The notes under the pieces are model-generated. The model was not told the origin of the DNA. It did not search any database and saw nothing but the letters and a program-made list of their open reading frames with translations. From Pseudopelagicola sp. (GTDB lineage Bacteria; Pseudomonadota; Alphaproteobacteria; Rhodobacterales; Rhodobacteraceae), in contig JAPHRE010000027.1 in NCBI GenBank assembly GCA_026195905.1, forward strand, positions 1 to 64,000: 64,000 nucleotides of DNA, in the 5' to 3' direction. The position numbers and the translations under genes were made by a program. Of the stretch, positions 43,708 to 52,803 are shown in pieces. How positions within the stretch are numbered: position 1 is the first letter of the stretch; each line of letters begins with the position of its first letter.

Positions 43708-44286
43708 GTGCCTGACGAGACGCCACAGACGCCACAGACGACCCTAAGCCCCGAGACCGAGTGGATGCTTGCGGTGCGCGATCATCGTGATCGCGCGGCC
43801 TTTGCCCGGCTGTTCGATCATTTCGCGCCGCGCCTCAAGGGCTTTGCCATGCGCGCTGGGGCCAATGCCGCCGAGGCCGAGGACATCGTGCAGGACGTGA
43901 TGATCAAGGTCTGGCAACGCGCGCATCAGTTTGATCCCCAACAGGCACAGGTCTCGGGCTGGATTTACCGCATCGCCCGCAACCAACAGATTGACCGCTT
44001 TCGCAAAGACCGCCGCCCCGAGCCAGAGATGCTCGTGCCCGAAGAAGAGGCCGTGCCCGATGCCGGACAGGTGGTGGCCCTTGAACAAGAGGCCGCGGGC
44101 CTGCGCGAGGCGCTCTCCCGTCTCAAGCCCGATCAGCGCGAGATGGTTGAACGCGCCTATCTTGGCGAGTTGAGCCATACTGAGATTCAGGCCGAAACGG
44201 GCCTGCCGCTCGGCACGATCAAATCACGCATCCGTCTGGCCCTTGAAAAACTGCGCCACGAGATGAAGGATATGCGCCCGACATGA
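43708..44286 (+). CDS. rpoE: ECF sigma factor, RpoE group (ChrR-controlled)
   Basis: A 192-residue extracytoplasmic-function sigma factor. Region 2 reads EAEDIVQDVMIKVWQRA and YRIARNQQIDRFRKDRRP; region 4 is LKPDQREMVERAYLGELSHTEI and LPLGTIKSRIRLALEKLR (abridged). It is paired with a ChrR-type anti-sigma (ATGA overlap), as in Rhodobacter where the pair answers singlet oxygen. Translation starts at GTG 43708; the leader has GAAAGATA only, so the start is not strongly supported and an ATG at 43762 (MLAVRDHRD) is possible. No consensus RpoE promoter (TGATCC-N18-TAAG) is seen upstream. Confidence 0.88.
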   Translation: MPDETPQTPQTTLSPETEWMLAVRDHRDRAAFARLFDHFAPRLKGFAMRAGANAAEAEDIVQDVMIKVWQRAHQFDPQQAQVSGWIYRIARNQQIDRFRKDRRPEPEMLVPEEEAVPDAGQVVALEQEAAGLREALSRLKPDQREMVERAYLGELSHTEIQAETGLPLGTIKSRIRLALEKLRHEMKDMRPT

Positions 44287-44924
44287 CCGCACCCGCACAT
44301 CATATCCCCGAAGAAATCCTTGTGGCCTATGCCGCCGGAAGCCTGCCGCACCCGCATGCCGTCGTGGTGGCCGCGCATATCTCGCTTTGTGATACATGCC
44401 GCGCCGCGCTTGCCGCGCATCAGGCCGTGGGCGGCGCGCTTTTGGAACAGGAATCCGGCGAGGCGGTGTCGGACTCCCTGCGCGCCCGCGTCCTTGATAT
44501 GCTCGACGCGCCCTTGCCCCCCGAGCCAACCCCGCCAAAACGCAAAGGCATCTATCCCGCTCCGGTTGCGGAATTGCTTGGCCCGGACGGGCAGGTGCCT
44601 TGGAAATCCTTGGGCTTTGGCGTCAAACAGGCGCTCCTGAGCGAGGGCGAGGAAGGCTCTTTGCGCCTGCTTTATATCCCCGGTGGCCGCGCCATGCCCG
44701 AACATGGCCATCATGGGCTTGAGATGACCCTCGTGCTTCAGGGCAGTTTTTCGGACGATGAAGGGCTGTTTGGCCCCGGCGATATCGAAATCGGCCACGA
44801 CGCGCTTGAGCACACGCCGATTGCGACGCCGGGGGTTGATTGCATCTGCCTTGCCGCCACGGATGCGCCTTTGCGCTTCAAAAGCCTTGTGCCGCGTCTA
44901 TTTCAGCCATTTTTCCGTATTTGA
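44283..44924 (+). CDS. chrR: ChrR-type zinc anti-sigma factor
   Basis: A 213-residue anti-sigma factor. The N-terminal ZAS domain holds H6 or H7, H32, C36 and C39 (AAHISLCDTC), the Zn site seen in Rhodobacter ChrR. The C-terminal cupin has PEHGHHGLEMTLVLQG and GDIEIGHDALEH, the second metal site, needed for the singlet oxygen signal. The start overlaps the rpoE stop. Confidence 0.9.
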   Translation: MTAPAHHIPEEILVAYAAGSLPHPHAVVVAAHISLCDTCRAALAAHQAVGGALLEQESGEAVSDSLRARVLDMLDAPLPPEPTPPKRKGIYPAPVAELLGPDGQVPWKSLGFGVKQALLSEGEEGSLRLLYIPGGRAMPEHGHHGLEMTLVLQGSFSDDEGLFGPGDIEIGHDALEHTPIATPGVDCICLAATDAPLRFKSLVPRLFQPFFRI

Positions 44925-44954
44925 TACGGATCAACCTCAAATAACATCGCAAAG

Positions 44955-44968
44955 TTGATATATGTCAA
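44955..44968 (+). promoter_or_regulatory. FNR/FnrL-type box upstream of the octaheme cytochrome gene
   Basis: TTGATATATGTCAA differs from the FNR consensus TTGAT-N4-ATCAA at one base, and equals the TTGA-N6-TCAA core of FNR/CRP-type sites. It is centred 80 bases upstream of the ATG. A TTTAGC at 44989-44994 could be a -10 box at the right distance (site near -41.5), so activation at low oxygen is predicted. Confidence 0.7.
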
Positions 44969-45040: not shown

Positions 45041-46663
45041 ATGTATATCAAAAGGGCCGTTCTCGGCCTTGCTATTATCCTATCCTCGGCCACTTTCGCA
45101 GTGGCGCAGGAGGAGGTGAGCAAGTCCACAGCGGATCACTCGAAGTTTCCGATCCTGCAAAAAGATTTTCAGTCGGGGCCGGAAGTGACCGAAGCCTGCC
45201 TCACCTGCCACACCGAGGCAGATGACCAGATGATGCACTCGATCCATTTTACGTGGGACTACGAGCATCCCGAAACCGGCCAGCGCCTTGGCAAAAGCAA
45301 CGTCATCAACTCGTTTTGCGGGTCGGTCGCGGGCAATGAACCGCGCTGCACCTCCTGTCATGCGGGCTATGGCTGGGACGACATGAGCCAGCCAGCGCCA
45401 CAAGAGGCAAACGCCAAGGATTGCCTCGTCTGTCATGACAAATCCGACCAATATACCAAACTTGCAACCGGCGCGGGCCACCCCCCGATGCAAGCCAAGG
45501 GCAAAACCATCACCGGCAAAGATGCCTGGGCGGTGGACCTCAAGAAAGCCGCGATGAGCGTCGGTATGCCGGACCGCGACAATTGCGGCAACTGCCACTT
45601 TTACGGCGGGGGCGGCGATAACGTAAAACATGGCGATCTGTCCTCGGCGCTCTACAACCCGACCCATGATGTCGATGTGCACATGTCTTCGGTCGAAGAG
45701 GGCGGCGAAGGCATGGTCTGTGCCGATTGCCACGTCTCGGACCGCCATGAATGGGCCGGGTCGCGCTATAATGTGCTGGCGTCTGATCCGCACGGCACCG
45801 GCAAACCCGGCGAGGCGCGCCATGCGGCCTCGTGCCAATCGTGCCACGGTCAAGAGCCGCACCCGACCAATATCAAGGGTCTCAAGCTCAACGATCATAC
45901 CGACACGCTCGCCTGTCAGACCTGCCACATCCCGGAATACGCCCGTGGTGGCGTGCCGACGAAATCCATGTGGGACTGGTCGACCGCAGGGCGGCTCGAT
46001 GAGAACGGCAAACCGATCCACGAAGACGATTACGTCTCCTCGACCGGCCAGCACCTGCACACCTATCTCTCGACCAAGGGCAATTTCGACTATCAGGAAG
46101 ACGCCGAGCCTTATTACGCATGGTTTGACGGGCAGGTGGAATACACCACCTATGACCGCAAGATTGATCCGTCCAACACGGTTGATATCAACGTGATCCA
46201 CGGCGCCCGCGAAGACGGCAGATCGCGCATCTGGCCCTTCAAACGCATGGAAGGCCGTCAGGCCTATGACACGGTCAACAACAACCTTGTCTATACCCAT
46301 GTCTGGGGTCCGACGACCGATACCGCCTTCTGGACCAACTTCGATTGGGCCAAGGCGATTGATGCAGGCATGAAAGCGGCCAACAAGCCCTATTCGGGCG
46401 AGTTCGATTTCGTTGATACCTATATGTATTGGCCGATCACCCACATGGTCGCCCCGGCAGAAAACGCCGTTGATTGTGTGGAATGTCACCAACAGGATGG
46501 CCGTCTTGCCAATGTGGCCGGGGTCTTCATGCCCGGCACCAATACCAACGGGCCGGTGGGCCTTCTGGGTAAGGCGCTCCTTCTCCTGACCCTCATGGGG
46601 GTTGTCGCCCACGCTCTTATCCGCACCTTCTCGCGCAAATCCAAAGGAGGCCATCATGACTAA
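45041..46663 (+). CDS. Octaheme c-type cytochrome, tetrathionate reductase (Otr) family, with C-terminal membrane anchor
   Basis: A 540-residue secreted multiheme cytochrome. A signal peptide (MYIKRAVLGLAIILSS, cut after AVA) is followed by exactly eight CXXCH motifs, at C53, C103, C128, C182, C227, C265, C292 and C479. NSFCGSVAGNEPRCTSCHAGYGW (abridged here: CTSCHAGYGW) is the diagnostic segment of the octaheme tetrathionate reductase family, whose members also reduce nitrite and hydroxylamine in vitro. Here the C-terminus adds one hydrophobic helix (GKALLLLTLMGVVAHALI), absent from soluble Shewanella Otr, and overlaps a cytochrome b gene. Start: GGGAGGAG before ATG 45041. The substrate here is not known. 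Confidence 0.88.
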   Translation: MYIKRAVLGLAIILSSATFAVAQEEVSKSTADHSKFPILQKDFQSGPEVTEACLTCHTEADDQMMHSIHFTWDYEHPETGQRLGKSNVINSFCGSVAGNEPRCTSCHAGYGWDDMSQPAPQEANAKDCLVCHDKSDQYTKLATGAGHPPMQAKGKTITGKDAWAVDLKKAAMSVGMPDRDNCGNCHFYGGGGDNVKHGDLSSALYNPTHDVDVHMSSVEEGGEGMVCADCHVSDRHEWAGSRYNVLASDPHGTGKPGEARHAASCQSCHGQEPHPTNIKGLKLNDHTDTLACQTCHIPEYARGGVPTKSMWDWSTAGRLDENGKPIHEDDYVSSTGQHLHTYLSTKGNFDYQEDAEPYYAWFDGQVEYTTYDRKIDPSNTVDINVIHGAREDGRSRIWPFKRMEGRQAYDTVNNNLVYTHVWGPTTDTAFWTNFDWAKAIDAGMKAANKPYSGEFDFVDTYMYWPITHMVAPAENAVDCVECHQQDGRLANVAGVFMPGTNTNGPVGLLGKALLLLTLMGVVAHALIRTFSRKSKGGHHD

Positions 46664-47318
46664 GCGTATCGTCAAGGTTTACCCCCGCTTCGAACGCTTC
46701 TGGCATTGGATGCAGGTCGTGCTCATCATGGCGCTCATGGTGACGGGCATGGGGTTGAATGGGGTGCATTCCCTGATCCCCTTTGGTCCGGCTGTGATGC
46801 TGCATACGTTGGCGGCGCTGGCGCTTTTGGCGCTGTGGATTTTCGCAACCTTCTGGCTTTTTACCACCGGCACCTGGAAACAGTTCATTCCCAAGATCGA
46901 AGGCATGGTCTCGGTGGCGCGCTTCTACGCTTACGGCGTGTTCAAGGGCGAAGAGCACCCCTATGAGAAAATCTTCTGGCGCAAACACAACCCGCTTCAG
47001 GCCGCGACCTACTTTGTTCTGAAGTGGTTCATTTTCCCGGCGATCTGGGTCACGGGCCTGTTGTATCTGACCTATAATTTCTGGGCCGGTAGCAATAGTG
47101 TGGTTGCGATTACGATCATCGCCAACCTACACCTCTTTGCAGCCTATGTGATCGGCGCCTTCATCATCGTCCATATCTACCTGCTGACCGTGGGCCACGG
47201 CTTCCGCCAGCATGTGAAACCGATGGTGACAGGCTATGACGAGATAGATCTCACGCCTGAGCAAGAGGCCTATCTCGAAACCAATGAACCGGGGCGTTTG
47301 AAGCCGATCAAGAGGTGA
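46656..47318 (+). CDS. Cytochrome b/b6-type membrane partner of the octaheme cytochrome
   Basis: A 220-residue integral membrane protein with four hydrophobic segments. H17 (RFWHWMQ), H50 (VMLHTLA), H159 (NLHLFAAY) and H173 (VHIYLLTVGH) are candidate axial ligands of two b hemes, as in the cytochrome b561 / Ni-hydrogenase b-type family. It overlaps the octaheme gene by eight bases with AAAGGAGG inside that gene. It probably oxidises quinol and passes electrons to the periplasmic octaheme protein, giving a quinol-linked reductase; this is inference from context. Confidence 0.88.
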   Translation: MTKRIVKVYPRFERFWHWMQVVLIMALMVTGMGLNGVHSLIPFGPAVMLHTLAALALLALWIFATFWLFTTGTWKQFIPKIEGMVSVARFYAYGVFKGEEHPYEKIFWRKHNPLQAATYFVLKWFIFPAIWVTGLLYLTYNFWAGSNSVVAITIIANLHLFAAYVIGAFIIVHIYLLTVGHGFRQHVKPMVTGYDEIDLTPEQEAYLETNEPGRLKPIKR

Positions 47319-47673: not shown

Positions 47674-48243
47674 CTACCGGCCCCAAGACCGGACCGGGCC
47701 ACAATCCATATGCACGAAATTCGATCCCGTGTAGCGCCCGACGCCACCCGCGCGGCAGGCTTGCGCCGCCTTGGCCATCTGGTTGACCGAGCGGTTTGCA
47801 AGCCGCAAATCCGCCGCCTGACCCTTCATATGAAGCGAGTTCTTGGCAACCCCCCGCGATCGCGACCGAAGCATTGAGTTGGTCTTGGGGCTGCGATACC
47901 CCGACAGCAGCATATACGGCTCTTGGATATCAAGAAGGTTATGCGATGCGGCCATGATGTCGATGGTGCGAAGGTCCATCTTGATCACATCACTGGTGCG
48001 CCAATCGCGCATGAAGCGATTGATTTCATTGACGGCTTCCTTGATGTAATCGCCTTCGATCCAATAGATCGTGTCGATCCGCTCGCCGGTTCGGCCGGAA
48101 TACATACGGATGCGGCGAATATCGCCGGAGCCGCGCAGAAAGCCTGCTGCTTGCGAGAAAGTGGGTGCTGCGGCCACGGTGGTGGCGGCAAACGCGCCAA
48201 GGATGCCGCGTCGTGTGAAATTCAGCGTATTCGAGTCACTCAT
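47674..48243 (-). CDS. DUF882 (M15-like) Tat-exported murein peptidase candidate
   Basis: A 189-residue protein beginning MSDSNTLNFTRRGILGAFAA, a Tat signal with twin arginine R11-R12 and a hydrophobic stretch ending near AAPTFSQA. The mature part has the M15-type zinc motif HMKGQAADLR and a closing FVHMDCGPVRSWGR, the marks of the DUF882/YcbK (MepK) family. MepK is a murein endopeptidase acting on 3-3 cross-links, and the divergent neighbour is an L,D-transpeptidase that makes them. The open frame continues 35 codons upstream but ATG 48243 starts the Tat signal. Confidence 0.88.
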   Translation of the reverse strand: MSDSNTLNFTRRGILGAFAATTVAAAPTFSQAAGFLRGSGDIRRIRMYSGRTGERIDTIYWIEGDYIKEAVNEINRFMRDWRTSDVIKMDLRTIDIMAASHNLLDIQEPYMLLSGYRSPKTNSMLRSRSRGVAKNSLHMKGQAADLRLANRSVNQMAKAAQACRAGGVGRYTGSNFVHMDCGPVRSWGR

Positions 48244-48550
48244 TGGTCGGATGCCTGTCCTGTCTCGTTCGTCAAGTCGCGATTTTTCGCGATCATCGTA
48301 TCCATCCCCAGATGCGGGATTTATGCCACAAGACGATTCGGTGACCAAGTCCTGATTTCCGACCTATCCTTTTATATGAAGGATTTGGGCGGAATTTTGC
48401 TGAAATGCCAAACATGCGCCTTAAGGGGAAACTGCGCCCCCTCTGCATCAGATGTGACGAATTGAATAAACTGTGAATAGACAGGCCGTAGTAAATTGGC
48501 GCATTGTTTCCGCATATTGTGGACTGCCAGGACAGAGAGGCCTTATTTCG
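48244..48550. other. Divergent intergenic region, no gene seen
   Basis: This 307-base region separates the divergent DUF882 and L,D-transpeptidase genes. I see two small inverted repeats, ATCCTT/AAGGAT (48366-48384) and AGGGG/CCCCT (48424-48441), and no credible open frame. It should contain both promoters; no clear consensus boxes could be picked. Confidence 0.6.
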
Positions 48551-50158
48551 ATGCCCATGACGATCATCCGCCGATATCTTGCAGGAGCAGGGCTTTGCCT
48601 TGCGATGACGGCAGGGGGATTTGCCATGCCGGCGCAGGCCGAGGTGACGGCCTTCAAACAGGCGGTGGCCGAAGCGGCAGCACGCGACGCGGATATCGCG
48701 GGCTTTTATCGCGATACGAATTATCAACCGATCTGGACCGGCACCGACGCCGACGACCTCGCCCGGCGACAGGCGCTTCTTAAGGCGATAGAAACGGCGG
48801 ACGATCACGGCCTGCCTGTTGCGCGCTATGATTTTGATAGGCTCTATTCGCAACTGCGGGCGGCCCATACGCCACGGGCGCTTGGCATGGCCGAGGTGGC
48901 GCTGTCCAAGGCATTTTTGTCCTATGCGCGTGACCTTCAGACCGGCGTTTTCGTTCCGACACAGCTCGATGAGGGGATCAAGCGCGAAGCCCCAAGGCGC
49001 GACCGGCGCAGCTATCTGACCAACCTGATTGCCTCCGAACCGAACGGCTATATGCGCAGCCTCGCGCCGCATACCCCCGAATATGTGCGGTTGTTCAAGG
49101 AGAAACTTCGCCTTGAACATATCGCGCTTGCGGGCGGCTGGGGGCCAACGGTCCAGGCCAACAAGCTTGAACCCGGCGATCGCGGCACGGCTGTGATTGC
49201 GCTGCGGGATCGCTTGGTGGCACTCGACTATCTTCAGCGCAGCGCCACGGCGGAATATGATACGGCGTTGAAAAAAGCCGTTCAGGCGTTTCAGCTTGAT
49301 CATGGCCTCGAAGCGGACGGGATTGCCGGAGCTTCGACGATTTCCGAGATCAATCGCTCGCCTGAGGACCGTCTCAAATCCATCATGGTTGCGATGGAGC
49401 GTGAGCGTTGGCTCAACAAACCGCGCGGCGAGCGCCATATCCTTGTCAATCTGACCGATTTTCATGCCCGTATCGTCGACCATGACCGTGTGACCTTCAT
49501 GACCCGGTCTGTGATTGGCAAGAACCGTCATGACCAGCGCAGCCCGGAGTTTTCCGATGTCATGGAACATATGGTCATCAACCCGACATGGAATGTGCCG
49601 CGCTCAATCGCGACCAAAGAATACCTGCCGATGCTTAAACGCAACCCCAACGCGGTCAGCTATCTCAAGCTGATCGACGGGCGGGGGCGCGTCGTCAACC
49701 GCGGTGCCGTCGATTTCAATCAGTTCAGTGCCAAGAGCTTTCCGTTTGACATCAAACAGCCGCCAAGCCCGCGCAATGCCCTTGGTCTTGTGAAGTTCAT
49801 GTTCCCGAACCGCCACAATATCTACCTGCACGACACTCCCTCCAAGAGCTTGTTTGCAAGGGAAGTGCGCGCGTTCAGTCATGGCTGTATCCGCCTGCAG
49901 AAGCCCTTTGAATTTGCCTATAATATTCTTGCGCGTCAGGAGAGCGATCCGAAAGGCTTCTTCCACAGCACGCTCAAGACGGGGCGGGAAACGCAGGTTG
50001 ACCTGGATCAGCCCATCCCGGTGCATATCATTTACCGCACCGCGTTCACCAATGCGAAGGGGCCGGTGCAGTATCGCCGCGACATTTACGGGCGTGATGC
50101 CAAGATCTGGCAGGCGATGGTGAATGAAGGGGTGGTCTTGCGCTCTGTTCAAGGGTAA
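48551..50158 (+). CDS. L,D-transpeptidase (YcbB/LdtD type)
   Basis: A periplasmic L,D-transpeptidase of 535 residues forming 3-3 peptidoglycan cross-links. Signal peptide MPMTIIRRYLAGAGLCLAMT with cleavage after AQA; a peptidoglycan-binding domain near 205-260 (LEPGDRGTAVIALRDRL, VQAFQLDHGLEADGIAG); the YkuD catalytic domain with SHGCIRLQKP and nucleophile C446. The insertion and length match YcbB. The open frame begins earlier at 48473, but ATG 48551 (or 48557) gives the signal peptide. It is divergent from a DUF882 endopeptidase, so the two could act on the same cross-link. Confidence 0.92.
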   Translation: MPMTIIRRYLAGAGLCLAMTAGGFAMPAQAEVTAFKQAVAEAAARDADIAGFYRDTNYQPIWTGTDADDLARRQALLKAIETADDHGLPVARYDFDRLYSQLRAAHTPRALGMAEVALSKAFLSYARDLQTGVFVPTQLDEGIKREAPRRDRRSYLTNLIASEPNGYMRSLAPHTPEYVRLFKEKLRLEHIALAGGWGPTVQANKLEPGDRGTAVIALRDRLVALDYLQRSATAEYDTALKKAVQAFQLDHGLEADGIAGASTISEINRSPEDRLKSIMVAMERERWLNKPRGERHILVNLTDFHARIVDHDRVTFMTRSVIGKNRHDQRSPEFSDVMEHMVINPTWNVPRSIATKEYLPMLKRNPNAVSYLKLIDGRGRVVNRGAVDFNQFSAKSFPFDIKQPPSPRNALGLVKFMFPNRHNIYLHDTPSKSLFAREVRAFSHGCIRLQKPFEFAYNILARQESDPKGFFHSTLKTGRETQVDLDQPIPVHIIYRTAFTNAKGPVQYRRDIYGRDAKIWQAMVNEGVVLRSVQG

Positions 50159-50185
50159 ATATTGCCCGCAATTCGCGGGGGACAC

Positions 50186-51277
50186 ATGGCCCATACTATC
50201 CAGCAGATTGCCGACGCCATCGGGGCGGAGGCCTTTGGAAATACAAACCTTACGGTAAATCAGGTCGCGGAGCCCGCTATGGCGGGGCCGGACGATCTCG
50301 CCCTTGTCACCAATCCCAAATATGCTGAGGGGCTTGGCGCGGGGGAGGCGCGCGCTGCAATGCTCTGGCCCGGCGCAGATTGGCAGGCGCTTGGTCTTGA
50401 GGCTGCGATGACCTCGCCGCGTGGCCGCTTTGCTATGGCGGGCCTGTCCAAAATGATGGACCCCGGCCAGCATTTTGGCGACGGCATTCACCCAAGCGCC
50501 ATCATCGACCCCAGCGCCGAGATTGCCGAGGGCGTTGCGATTGGCCCTCTGACCTATGTGGGGCCACGGGCCCGTATCGGCGTAGGCAGCGTGATCGGCC
50601 CGCATTGCGTGATCGGTGCGGATGTGACCTTGGGCGAGGGAGCCTCTCTGCGCGAGATGGTGTCGATTGGCGCCCGCGCGACCATTGGCACAGGGTTTAT
50701 CGCCCAACCGGGCGTGCGCATTGCCTCGGACGGCTTTTCCTTTGTGACCCCCGAGAAATCCGGGGTCGAGGCCGCGCGCGAGACGCTTGGCGATCAAGGC
50801 GAGGTCCGATCACAGGCCTGGGCGCGGATTCATAGCCTTGGCTCGGTCACGATTGGCAATGATGTGGAGATCGGTGCCAATAGCTGTATCGACTGTGGCA
50901 CGATCCGCGACACACGGATCGGCAATGGTGTGAAGCTCGATAATCTTGTGCACATCGCCCATAATGTCGAAATTGGCGATGACACGCTTCTCGCCGGACA
51001 GGTTGGGATTGCTGGATCAACCAAGATTGGCCGCAACGTGGTCATGGGCGGGCAATGTGGTGTGACCGACAATACGACCGTGGGCGACAATGTGATCGCG
51101 GGCGGTGCGACCAAGATGATGTCAAAAGTGCCTGCTGGCCGTGTCGTCCTCGGGTCTCCGGCTGTGAAGATGGAGACACATTTGGAGATGTATAAGGGTC
51201 TTCGGCGTCTACCGCGTCTTCTCAAGGACGTGGCGGCACTGCAAAAAATCGTTTCCAAGTTCGAGACGAAAGACTAA
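50186..51277 (+). CDS. lpxD: UDP-3-O-acylglucosamine N-acyltransferase
   Basis: Adds the N-linked hydroxyacyl chain in lipid A synthesis from a hydroxyacyl-ACP, 363 residues. N-terminal uridine-binding domain ([16 protein letters not shown]), then hexapeptide repeats forming a left-handed beta-helix, with the catalytic histidine in [20 protein letters not shown] (abridged). GGGGGA precedes ATG 50186. The following acp and KAS genes on the same strand make the three a likely lipid unit. lpxA, lpxB and fabZ are not in the window. Confidence 0.95.
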
Positions 51278-51308
51278 ATGACAGCCAGAATTGGCGAAAG
51301 GAAGACAA

Positions 51309-51566
51309 ATGAGCGTCAAGGACAAGGTGATCGAAATTATCGCTGAACAGGCTGTTCTCGATCCTTCGGACGTGACCATGCAGAGCACGCTTGAGGGTCT
51401 CGGCATTGATAGCCTTGGCCTCGTCGAGAGCATTTTCGCAATCGAAGAGGCATTCGATATTTCGGTGCCGTTCAATGCCAATGATCCAAGCGAGAGCGAC
51501 TTTGATATTTCCTCGGTGGCCTCTATTGTGGCCGGGATCGAGAAACTCATTGCAGACCAATCGTGA
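51309..51566 (+). CDS. Acyl carrier protein (second, non-housekeeping type)
   Basis: An 85-residue acidic ACP. Ser35 in GIDSLGLVES is the phosphopantetheine site, flanked by the usual helix II. It differs from AcpP (no IADDLGADSLD segment) and is followed by a KAS gene, so it probably serves a dedicated acyl chain. The LpxD neighbour points to lipid A or a long/branched acyl chain, by analogy with AcpXL clusters of rhizobia; this is inference. GAAAGGAAG is before the ATG. Confidence 0.85.
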   Translation: MSVKDKVIEIIAEQAVLDPSDVTMQSTLEGLGIDSLGLVESIFAIEEAFDISVPFNANDPSESDFDISSVASIVAGIEKLIADQS

Positions 51567-51594
51567 CACCTAACCTATATGCGGAGGGGATAGG

Positions 51595-52803
51595 ATGAAA
51601 CGGGTCGTTATTACCGGGGCGGGGACGATCAACGCCCTTGGCCATAATGTGCCGGAAACTCTCGAGGCGATGCGCGAAGGGCGTTGTGGCATTGGGGCCT
51701 TGGACGTGCGCGACGTTGACCGATTGGCGATCAAGATCGGCGGTCAGGTGCACGGGTTCGAGAGCGAAGGCCTCTTTAACCGTCAACAAATCGCACTTTA
51801 TGACCGCTTTACCCAGTTCGCCCTAGTGGCGGCGCGGGAAGCGATCGGGCAGGCCGGGCTGAGCTTTTCCGGCGATCTCGCGGCGCGTTGTGGTGTGGTT
51901 CTTGGAACCTCGGGCGGCGGGATGCAGACCCTCGATGAAAATTATCGCACGGTCTATGAGGACGGCAAGAACCGTGTGCATCCGTTCGTGGTGCCCAAGC
52001 TGATGAATAACGCGGCTGCAAGCCATGTCTCGATGGAGTTCAACCTCAAAGGGCCAAGTTTTACCGTTGCGACGGCCTGTGCATCCTCGAACCATGCGAT
52101 GAGCCAGGCCTTTCAACTTGTGCGCTCCGGTGCCGCGCCCGTGATGATCACTGGCGGAACGGAGTCGATGCTTTGTTTCGGCGGAATCAAGGCGTGGGAA
52201 GGTTTGCGGGTCATGTCCAAAGACGCCTGTCGTCCATTTTCTGCTAACCGAAACGGCATGGTGCAGGGCGAAGGGGCCGGGGTTTTCGTCTTTGAGGATT
52301 ACGATCATGCCCATGCGCGCGGTGCCGATATCCTTGCCGAGGTGGTTGGCTTTGCCATGACCTCGGATGCGTCGGATATCGTGATGCCTTCAAAACAGGG
52401 GGCTGCGCGCGCCATCGCCGGTGCGCTGAACGATGGGCGGATCAATCCCGAGGACGTCGGTTATATCAATGCGCATGGGACCGGCACGGCGGCCAACGAC
52501 AAGACCGAATGTGCGGCGGTGGCCGATGTTTTCGGTCAGCACGCGGATGAGTTGATGATTTCCTCAACCAAATCCATGCACGGCCATCTTATTGGCGGTA
52601 CTGGGGCGGTTGAGTTATTGGCCTGTATCATGGCGTTGCGCGATGGGGTCATCGCGCCGACAATCGGATATGAAGAGCCAGACCCGGAGTGCGCGCTTGA
52701 CGTTGTGCCCAACGAGGCGCGCGAGGCGAAAATTGATGTCGCTCTTTCTAACGCGTTTGCCTTTGGCGGTTTGAACGCGGTGATGGCCTTACGCAAGGTT
52801 TAA
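51595..52803 (+). CDS. Beta-ketoacyl-ACP synthase, FabF-like
   Basis: A 402-residue condensing enzyme. C162 (VATACASSNHAMSQ), H294 (NAHGTGTAAND) and H331 (KSMHGHLIGGTGAVE) form the KAS II catalytic triad. The start MKRVVITGAGTINALG is the family norm, with GCGGAGGGG in the leader. It follows the ACP gene by 28 bases, and I infer that it elongates acyl chains on that ACP. It is likely an accessory KAS rather than housekeeping FabF. Confidence 0.9.
   Translation: MKRVVITGAGTINALGHNVPETLEAMREGRCGIGALDVRDVDRLAIKIGGQVHGFESEGLFNRQQIALYDRFTQFALVAAREAIGQAGLSFSGDLAARCGVVLGTSGGGMQTLDENYRTVYEDGKNRVHPFVVPKLMNNAAASHVSMEFNLKGPSFTVATACASSNHAMSQAFQLVRSGAAPVMITGGTESMLCFGGIKAWEGLRVMSKDACRPFSANRNGMVQGEGAGVFVFEDYDHAHARGADILAEVVGFAMTSDASDIVMPSKQGAARAIAGALNDGRINPEDVGYINAHGTGTAANDKTECAAVADVFGQHADELMISSTKSMHGHLIGGTGAVELLACIMALRDGVIAPTIGYEEPDPECALDVVPNEAREAKIDVALSNAFAFGGLNAVMALRKV

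Follow-up and report, generated by a model that had tools for sequence, protein, structure and literature searches.

Positions 45041 to 47318 of a 64,000-nucleotide stretch of Pseudopelagicola sp. DNA (contig JAPHRE010000027.1 of assembly GCA_026195905.1, forward strand; the whole stretch is called the window below) hold two overlapping genes, one for an octaheme c-type cytochrome of the octaheme tetrathionate reductase (Otr) family and one for a cytochrome b. Based on sequence comparison, this pair is most likely a well-formed member of a known group of membrane-anchored Otr proteins, acting as a quinol-linked tetrathionate reductase at low oxygen. We give the complete explanation (a two-subunit, membrane-bound quinol:tetrathionate reductase which is induced at low oxygen) slightly better than an even chance, and its parts are graded separately where they are discussed. 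What the comparison adds to the known group is a near-strict pairing of anchor and partner, natural fusions of the two proteins, a His and an Arg conserved in the anchor, a soluble form that looks derived, and a link with SoxB.

The octaheme protein and its cytochrome b partner

The octaheme gene (P0002, 45041..46663, + strand, with the ATG at 45041 and the TAA at 46661-46663) encodes 540 residues and the cytochrome b gene (P0001, 46656..47318, + strand, with the ATG at 46656 and the stop codon at 47316-47318) encodes 220. The two genes share eight bases, 46656-46663, in agreement with the overlap given in the original prediction, which had been made by a model from the bare sequence. That prediction had also placed the octaheme protein in the Otr family, based on eight CXXCH motifs and a CTSCHAGYGW segment; both are present (the motifs at residues 53, 103, 128, 182, 227, 265, 292 and 479, behind a signal peptide read by eye at residues 1-22, 45041..45106, + strand), and the assignment stands on the family score, the fold and the active site. 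The protein scores 585.7 bits against TIGR04315 (curated cut-off 375), and the Shewanella Otr structure, 1sp3, is its sole solved-structure match at E 0.001 (phmmer E 2.8e-97). The AlphaFold model (mean pLDDT 79.8), when searched with Foldseek, returns again only 1sp3 at this threshold (E 2.9e-42, with a TM score of 0.85 by target and 0.70 by query), and the profile search (A1) adds just a partial stretch of 5ze8 (cytochrome c552, E 1.9e-6). An identity as octaheme hydroxylamine oxidoreductase (HAO) or octaheme nitrite reductase (ONR) was rejected, since the solved-structure searches give 1sp3 at E 0.001 and neither HAO nor ONR.

The active-site residues of 1sp3 have counterparts in the window protein: Cys64 corresponds in the phmmer alignment to Cys93 (codon 45317..45319, + strand), and Asp150 and Lys153 correspond to Asp193 and Lys196 (first and last codons of 45617..45628, + strand). 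Lys153 is presumably the ligand of the active heme, with Asp150 and Cys64 as neighbouring active-site residues. Among the 129 proteins defined below, Cys93 is conserved in 128 and Asp193 in 123. A phylogeny of the catalytic heme region, including the distal ligand, had been proposed as a check; a tree of 129 cores was built, and Lys196 is kept in all of them. The Shewanella enzyme thus resembles the window protein in its eight hemes, its fold and these three residues, and differs from it in being soluble (PMC6449678), whereas the window protein has an anchor helix and a cytochrome b of its own; in Shewanella, Otr interacts with a small tetraheme cytochrome, itself fed by CymA (PMC4484225).

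The partner belongs to PF01292 (Ni_hydr_CYTB), with 80.4 bits against a gathering cut-off of 30.1, and its model (pLDDT 92.4) has helices at residues 11-34, 43-71, 113-138 and 148-178. The profile search matches it to 4gd3 chain A (the hydrogenase-1 cytochrome b, HyaC) and to 1kqf chain C (FdnI); Foldseek of the model returns nothing at E 0.001, the best matches being 6g94 (0.0054) and 4gd3 (0.0075). The four candidate heme b ligands originally proposed for this four-helix protein hold over the relatives: His17 (46704..46706), His50 (46803..46805), His159 (47130..47132) and His173 (47172..47174), all on the + strand, are kept in 125, 125, 124 and 124 of 125 proteins and align with FdnI His18, His57, His155 and His169, respectively. 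Additionally, Asn112 to Gln115 (an N-x-x-Q motif at 46989..47000, + strand, with N in 124/125 and Q in 123/125) corresponds to FdnI Asn110 to Gln113, which we take to lie near the FdnI quinone site.

In order to see how common this arrangement is, 149 loci were gathered from genomes of the genus, family, phylum and class and from 80 named loci, the latter being the best 80 of at least 567 relatives and biased towards the anchored query. One locus that is the window again (L001), 13 loci without a full octaheme reading frame and five duplicates were left out, which gives 130 loci with the window included. A protein was counted as anchored when its best 19-residue hydropathy behind the last heme reached at least 1.4 (124 proteins); L108 (1.34), whose tail aligns and has the His discussed below, was counted as well. 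A cytochrome b domain begins between -150 and +400 of the Otr stop codon in 125 of the 130 loci, and the five misses are four unanchored proteins (L040, L042, L047 and L052) and L117, in which a second octaheme reading frame had been picked and in which, by coordinates, a cytochrome b directly follows the real Otr. L117 was excluded from the subsequent counts, leaving 129, and 24 further phylum-level loci over the cut-off were added, consisting of one soluble protein without cytochrome b (L156) and 23 anchored ones, 22 of them with a cytochrome b adjacent or in the same chain. Altogether, 148 of 153 proteins (window included) are anchored and 147 of these 148 have an adjacent or fused cytochrome b, while the Shewanella-like form without anchor accounts for 5/153, none with cytochrome b. 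The phylum-level matches above the cut-off, 54 in all and a sample which does not favour anchored proteins, give the same picture, with 49 anchored (48 with cytochrome b) and five unanchored (none with cytochrome b). The anchored form had been presented as a departure from the soluble Shewanella protein; this has to be reversed, the anchored form being the majority. A soluble, Shewanella-type form was rejected for the window protein itself, which has an anchor at residues 505-535 and a cytochrome b starting at 46656. We regard its membership of the Otr family, as part of an anchored pair, as virtually certain.

Some loci depart from the ordinary form. One genome (G031) holds, beside two ordinary octaheme proteins, a third and very divergent copy (L032; 35% identity, nine CXXCH motifs), which is without Cys93 and Asp193 and retains Lys196, the anchor and the cytochrome b. 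Four loci from gammaproteobacterial bins (L117, L120, L123 and L146) have, near the Otr pair, a second and different octaheme protein of about 494 residues, together with a five-CXXCH protein and, in three of them, also a four-CXXCH protein. One TIGR04315 protein has been tabulated as a selenoprotein (PMC13188914).

Anchor helix, natural fusions and the soluble form

The C-terminal hydrophobic helix of the original prediction appears in the AlphaFold model at residues 505-535 (46553..46645, + strand), with a best 19-residue hydropathy of 2.01 and mean pLDDT values of 94 (residues 511-520) and 93 (521-530), between a preceding block at 73 and a following block at 59. Aligning the anchored proteins brings out two residues of this helix, four positions apart (46610..46624, + strand): His524 (46610-46612), conserved in 125/125 proteins of the first anchored set, and Arg528 (46622-46624), conserved in 124/125. 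In the 23 additional anchored proteins the His is found in all and the Arg in 22 (the fusion L160 has Gln), so that overall His524 is kept in 148/148 and Arg528 in 146/148. Gly510 is kept in 118/125 and Gly520 in 105/125, and most of the remaining helix positions drift at about 1.5-3 bits; Gly520, His524 and Arg528 are spaced at intervals of four. Because the two residues are invariant or nearly so amid drifting positions, the alignment suggests that His524 and Arg528 form part of a heme b or quinone site. The anchored protein L168 keeps both residues, and its genome (G370) holds another Otr with a cytochrome b (L048).

FdnI and HyaC offer the closest parallel, being PF01292-like proteins with four aligned His and a partner that has a His-bearing C-terminal helix; in E. 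coli K-12, FdnH (H275, in GLIFHYIG) and HyaA (in VGVHAVAS) have a His inside this helix, and the fdnH and fdnI genes share an eight-base overlap, as does the window pair. They differ in the partner, which is an iron-sulfur protein or a hydrogenase there and an octaheme cytochrome c here, and in the direction of flow, since electrons enter quinone in those systems and the window pair is expected to take them from quinol. Two further points were sought in the literature and not confirmed, namely a role in quinone reactivity for the helix His in FdnH and in Wolinella HydA, and a meeting of the FdnH and HyaA helices with the PF01292-type cytochrome b. In the literature searched, which covers few subscription journals, no description was found of the anchor His and Arg, of the fusions or of a purified complex of the pair.

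In three relatives the two proteins are one. L158 (843-3602, - strand), L160 (1771-4635, + strand) and L173 (777-3209, - strand, its start cut by the contig end) each hold a single frame of 811-955 residues, comprising the octaheme part, the anchor, the PF01292 cytochrome b and a PF00072 receiver domain. Such natural fusions are good evidence that Otr and cytochrome b work as one complex, and because of them we rate a quinol-linked complex likelier than we otherwise would. The original prediction had read the pair as a quinol-linked reductase, and this reading is supported by the anchor, the dedicated di-heme cytochrome b and the pairing; judged from these features, a quinol-linked complex is highly probable. 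A receiver domain (PF00072) is also borne by the separate cytochrome b of L056, L059 and L061, and the forms with receiver domains may represent a respiratory enzyme that senses or reports redox state.

The tree of the 129 cores was made by a quick method with a midpoint root, has several open forks and does not place L156. In it, the four soluble proteins make up one group (SH-aLRT 99) nested among the anchored proteins, and because of this nesting the soluble, Shewanella-like form looks derived in the sequence comparison. Anchored pairs occur also in Nitrospirota, Chloroflexota and Ignavibacteriota bins. Closer to the window, carriers amount to 5 of 25 genomes of the genus and to 23 of 295 in the family sample (22 over the cut-off). 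A protein of Sedimenticola selenatireducens (L078) sits in the window protein's clade, and the nearest species-named carrier among the matches listed is Shimia thalassica (L071, 82%); no paper joining Shimia with tetrathionate was found in the literature searched.

Proposed substrate, electron path and oxygen control

The original prediction held that no module of this form had been described experimentally and left the substrate unassigned. The first statement does not stand, since BOGUAY_2386, from an orange Guaymas Beggiatoaceae, has been expressed, purified and assayed, if as the octaheme subunit only; it was purified in 2019 and is 582 residues long, and its authors predict a helix at both its N and its C terminus (PMC6449678). 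By its published description it resembles the window protein in belonging to the Otr family, in both terminal helices and in having, among the genes downstream, one for a cytochrome b of the thiosulfate-reductase type, and it differs in coming from a Gammaproteobacterium and in the additional thiosulfate/polysulfide reductase genes that follow it; according to its authors it lies nearest to proteins of the Riftia and Tevnia symbionts, Thiomargarita and Sedimenticola (PMC6449678). It reduced tetrathionate at 93.4 ± 37.7 and 21.9 ± 9.8 µmol per min per mg in two elutions and nitrite at 1.29 µmol per min per mg, the bovine serum albumin controls for the assays being 0.195 and 0.0005 (PMC6449678).

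Gene content was compared in a sample of 80 genomes (28 carriers of the pair and 52 others), without correction for kinship. SoxB exceeds the cut-off in 27/28 carriers and 31/52 non-carriers (p 0.0004, Fisher, uncorrected for kinship), and in the family sample of 295 genomes in 22/23 carriers and 161/272 others (p 0.0002, likewise Fisher and uncorrected). NapA is depleted among carriers (4/28, compared to 24/52), and NapA or NarG taken together (14/28 and 30/52) have no association with carriage; for the cd1-type nitrite reductase (PF02239, E 1e-40) the counts are 13/28 and 16/52 (p 0.22), and NirK (1/28 and 3/52) has no link. Carriage goes with SoxB and not with the nitrate reductases taken together, and nitrate or nitrite respiration as the context of the pair is not clearly supported by these counts. 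In lucinid symbionts, otr adjoins soxY and soxZ (PMC11237559).

Because of the BOGUAY_2386 assays and the association with SoxB, tetrathionate becomes the first candidate, so that the substrate, left unassigned originally, is narrowed, with nitrite and hydroxylamine remaining as candidates; that tetrathionate is the main natural substrate has, in our estimate, about an even chance. Ubiquinol has a potential of about +110 mV. That of tetrathionate/thiosulfate is +198 mV (PMC5146829), and is therefore high enough for ubiquinol to act as donor. In the proposed mechanism, the octaheme domain would lie on the periplasmic side and ubiquinol would be oxidised at a site towards the cytoplasmic side of the cytochrome b, with a contribution from His524 and Arg528 of the anchor; electrons would then reach the heme chain by way of the two hemes b, and tetrathionate would be reduced to thiosulfate at the Lys-ligated heme, with the reduction of nitrite and hydroxylamine probably being side activities. 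The thiosulfate formed could supply the Sox system, and soxB is present in the same genome. A path of this kind, from quinol through a cytochrome b to periplasmic c hemes, has been proposed for the SHP operon, which comprises a cytochrome b, membrane and soluble di-heme cytochromes c and the oxygen-binding SHP (PMC2909971); it differs in its substrate protein, and the accessible text of that paper does not mention an octaheme protein.

Low oxygen probably induces the pair through an FNR-type regulator. The box noted originally is present at 44955..44968 (TTGATATATGTCAA, one mismatch to TTGATN4ATCAA), 72 bases before the ATG, and the prediction had overlooked a perfect palindrome, TTGATACGGATCAA, at 44921..44934, which overlaps the chrR stop codon and lies 34 bp upstream of the other box (no strand is assigned to either). 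The box at 44955-44968 is found at a near-constant distance in all five gene-bearing genomes of the genus, one of which has a perfect TTGATATATATCAA; the perfect box at 44921-44934 may be incidental, because among these five only the window genome has it. The window contains six sites with at most one mismatch, two of them in this promoter, against 1.6 expected, and one of 100 shuffles reaches six. Among the relatives, such a site precedes the gene in 27/127 loci (1.6 expected by shuffling); the counts are 16/43 within the window's clade (0.47 expected), where an equally long downstream control gives 2/45 (0.31 expected), and 11/80 outside it (1.1 expected; control 1/82 against 0.96). Judged by these shuffles, the FNR-type box is above chance level, and from its conservation we consider FNR control of the pair likely. 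No paper joining FnrL with an octaheme protein was found in the literature searched.

Several points weigh against the explanation as a whole. For the window's own lineage, activity, complex and expression are all predictions, and the conserved neighbours beyond the pair in the window's family have no sulfur theme. The pairing has its sole exception in the anchored Otr L168, whose downstream 1.9 kb hold no cytochrome b. BOGUAY_2386 was assayed as the octaheme subunit alone, with an artificial donor and after aerobic isolation, and quinol goes unmentioned in the accessible text of the report (PMC6449678). The association with SoxB carries no correction for kinship, is not significant within the genus (5/5 compared to 11/20, p 0.12) and is broken by one carrier without SoxB (G036). 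The majority of the relatives have no FNR-type site, and a Magnetospirillum protein that clusters with Otr, and had been taken for a hydroxylamine oxidoreductase, was not differentially transcribed with oxygen (PMC12774639), which speaks against oxygen control as a family-wide trait. Finally, the substrate itself is contested: nitrite and hydroxylamine are in vitro substrates of Otr enzymes too, the window genome carries a cd1-type nitrite reductase cluster (G000:C3:30107-38346) which makes a nitrogen chemistry possible, and NarG, taken alone, is enriched among carriers (10/28 against 6/52, p 0.017).

These last points are the strength of the best-surviving alternative, in which the same quinol-fed complex would have the reduction or detoxification of nitrite or hydroxylamine to ammonium as its natural job. 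The Shewanella enzyme reduces both compounds in vitro (as cited in PMC10949509 and PMC6449678) and BOGUAY_2386 reduces nitrite, but the latter, the only anchored relative to have been purified, works faster on tetrathionate (PMC6449678). The gene-content counts are against it as well (NapA depleted, NapA and NarG together without link, cd1 not significant, NirK without link), and the window genome, a 97% complete draft, has neither NapA nor NarG over the cut-off beside its cd1 cluster, which suggests that it uses nitrite but does not reduce nitrate, unless these genes have escaped the draft. We consider this alternative unlikely, at roughly one chance in four. Distinctly less probable is a general outlet for electrons in the periplasm, dedicated to no one acceptor and serving other sulfur oxyanions, selenite, metals or electrodes. 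It would agree with the family member in Sedimenticola selenatireducens, with the listing of Otr among Gallionellaceae heme proteins (PMC10734462) and with the cathode-oxidising Thioclava electrotropha, in which Otr, with eight heme motifs, has the most of any protein (PMC9226611). The near-complete conservation of Cys93 (128/129) and Lys196 (129/129), on the other hand, argues for one conserved catalytic chemistry. Least probable of all is the reverse direction, in which thiosulfate would be oxidised to tetrathionate and the cytochrome b would hand the electrons on to quinone, making the pair a thiosulfate:quinone oxidoreductase in bacteria with Sox; the SoxB association and HyaC, which delivers electrons to quinone, favour it, but the FNR-type box points to low-oxygen use and thiosulfate at +198 mV would be a poor donor to ubiquinone at about +110 mV. 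FdnI, also related to the cytochrome b, delivers electrons to quinone too (PMC13397495), and counts on the same side as HyaC.

Neighbouring genes and meaning for the family

The genes around the pair give little guidance. Directly 5' of the octaheme gene (window 43708-44924) lie genes for an ECF sigma factor and for an anti-sigma factor of the ChrR type (TIGR02451, 195.9 bits); such a pair belongs to the singlet-oxygen response. As regulators of the octaheme and cytochrome b genes they were rejected, with homologues in only 3/130 loci (the window, L003 and L004, all of the same genus, and not L005 or L006), a count in which many loci reach just 1-1.5 kb upstream. On the other side, genes named by Pfam as peptidase M15, L,D-transpeptidase, hexapeptide transferase (LpxD-like), acyl carrier and ketoacyl synthase adjoin the pair (window 47674-52803). 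This cell-wall and lipid block adjoins it in other Rhodobacteraceae too, with clusters seen in 6 to 9 of the named loci. The arrangement points to inheritance in place and gives no guide to function; because the block recurs in this way, the locus looks like an old one in the family, from which the pair has often been lost. Neighbours were also rejected as a clue to the substrate, since among 594 genes around the 80 named loci only Otr (80) and the cytochrome b (51) recur widely.

Bringing these results together, we arrive at a reading whose chances are evenly balanced: a widespread quinol:tetrathionate reductase with a working anchor helix (His524 and Arg528 helping to build the quinone or heme b site, much as the C-terminal helices of FdnH and HyaA would), which in some lineages would be a single chain with a receiver domain and of which the soluble Shewanella Otr would have lost both helix and partner. 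If so, three unrelated catalytic subunits would plug into one kind of cytochrome b through a His-bearing helix, and the single-chain receiver forms would be a respiratory enzyme wired to signalling. The family is named after one soluble Shewanella enzyme whose natural role is unclear. Should the form that most members take be a membrane complex linked to quinol, the family would become a respiratory system present in roseobacters and purple sulfur bacteria, and many multiheme proteins now annotated merely as "tetrathionate reductase family" would gain a mechanism. Marine bacteria with Sox would in that case have a further step in their sulfur cycle, a tetrathionate-thiosulfate step working at low oxygen.

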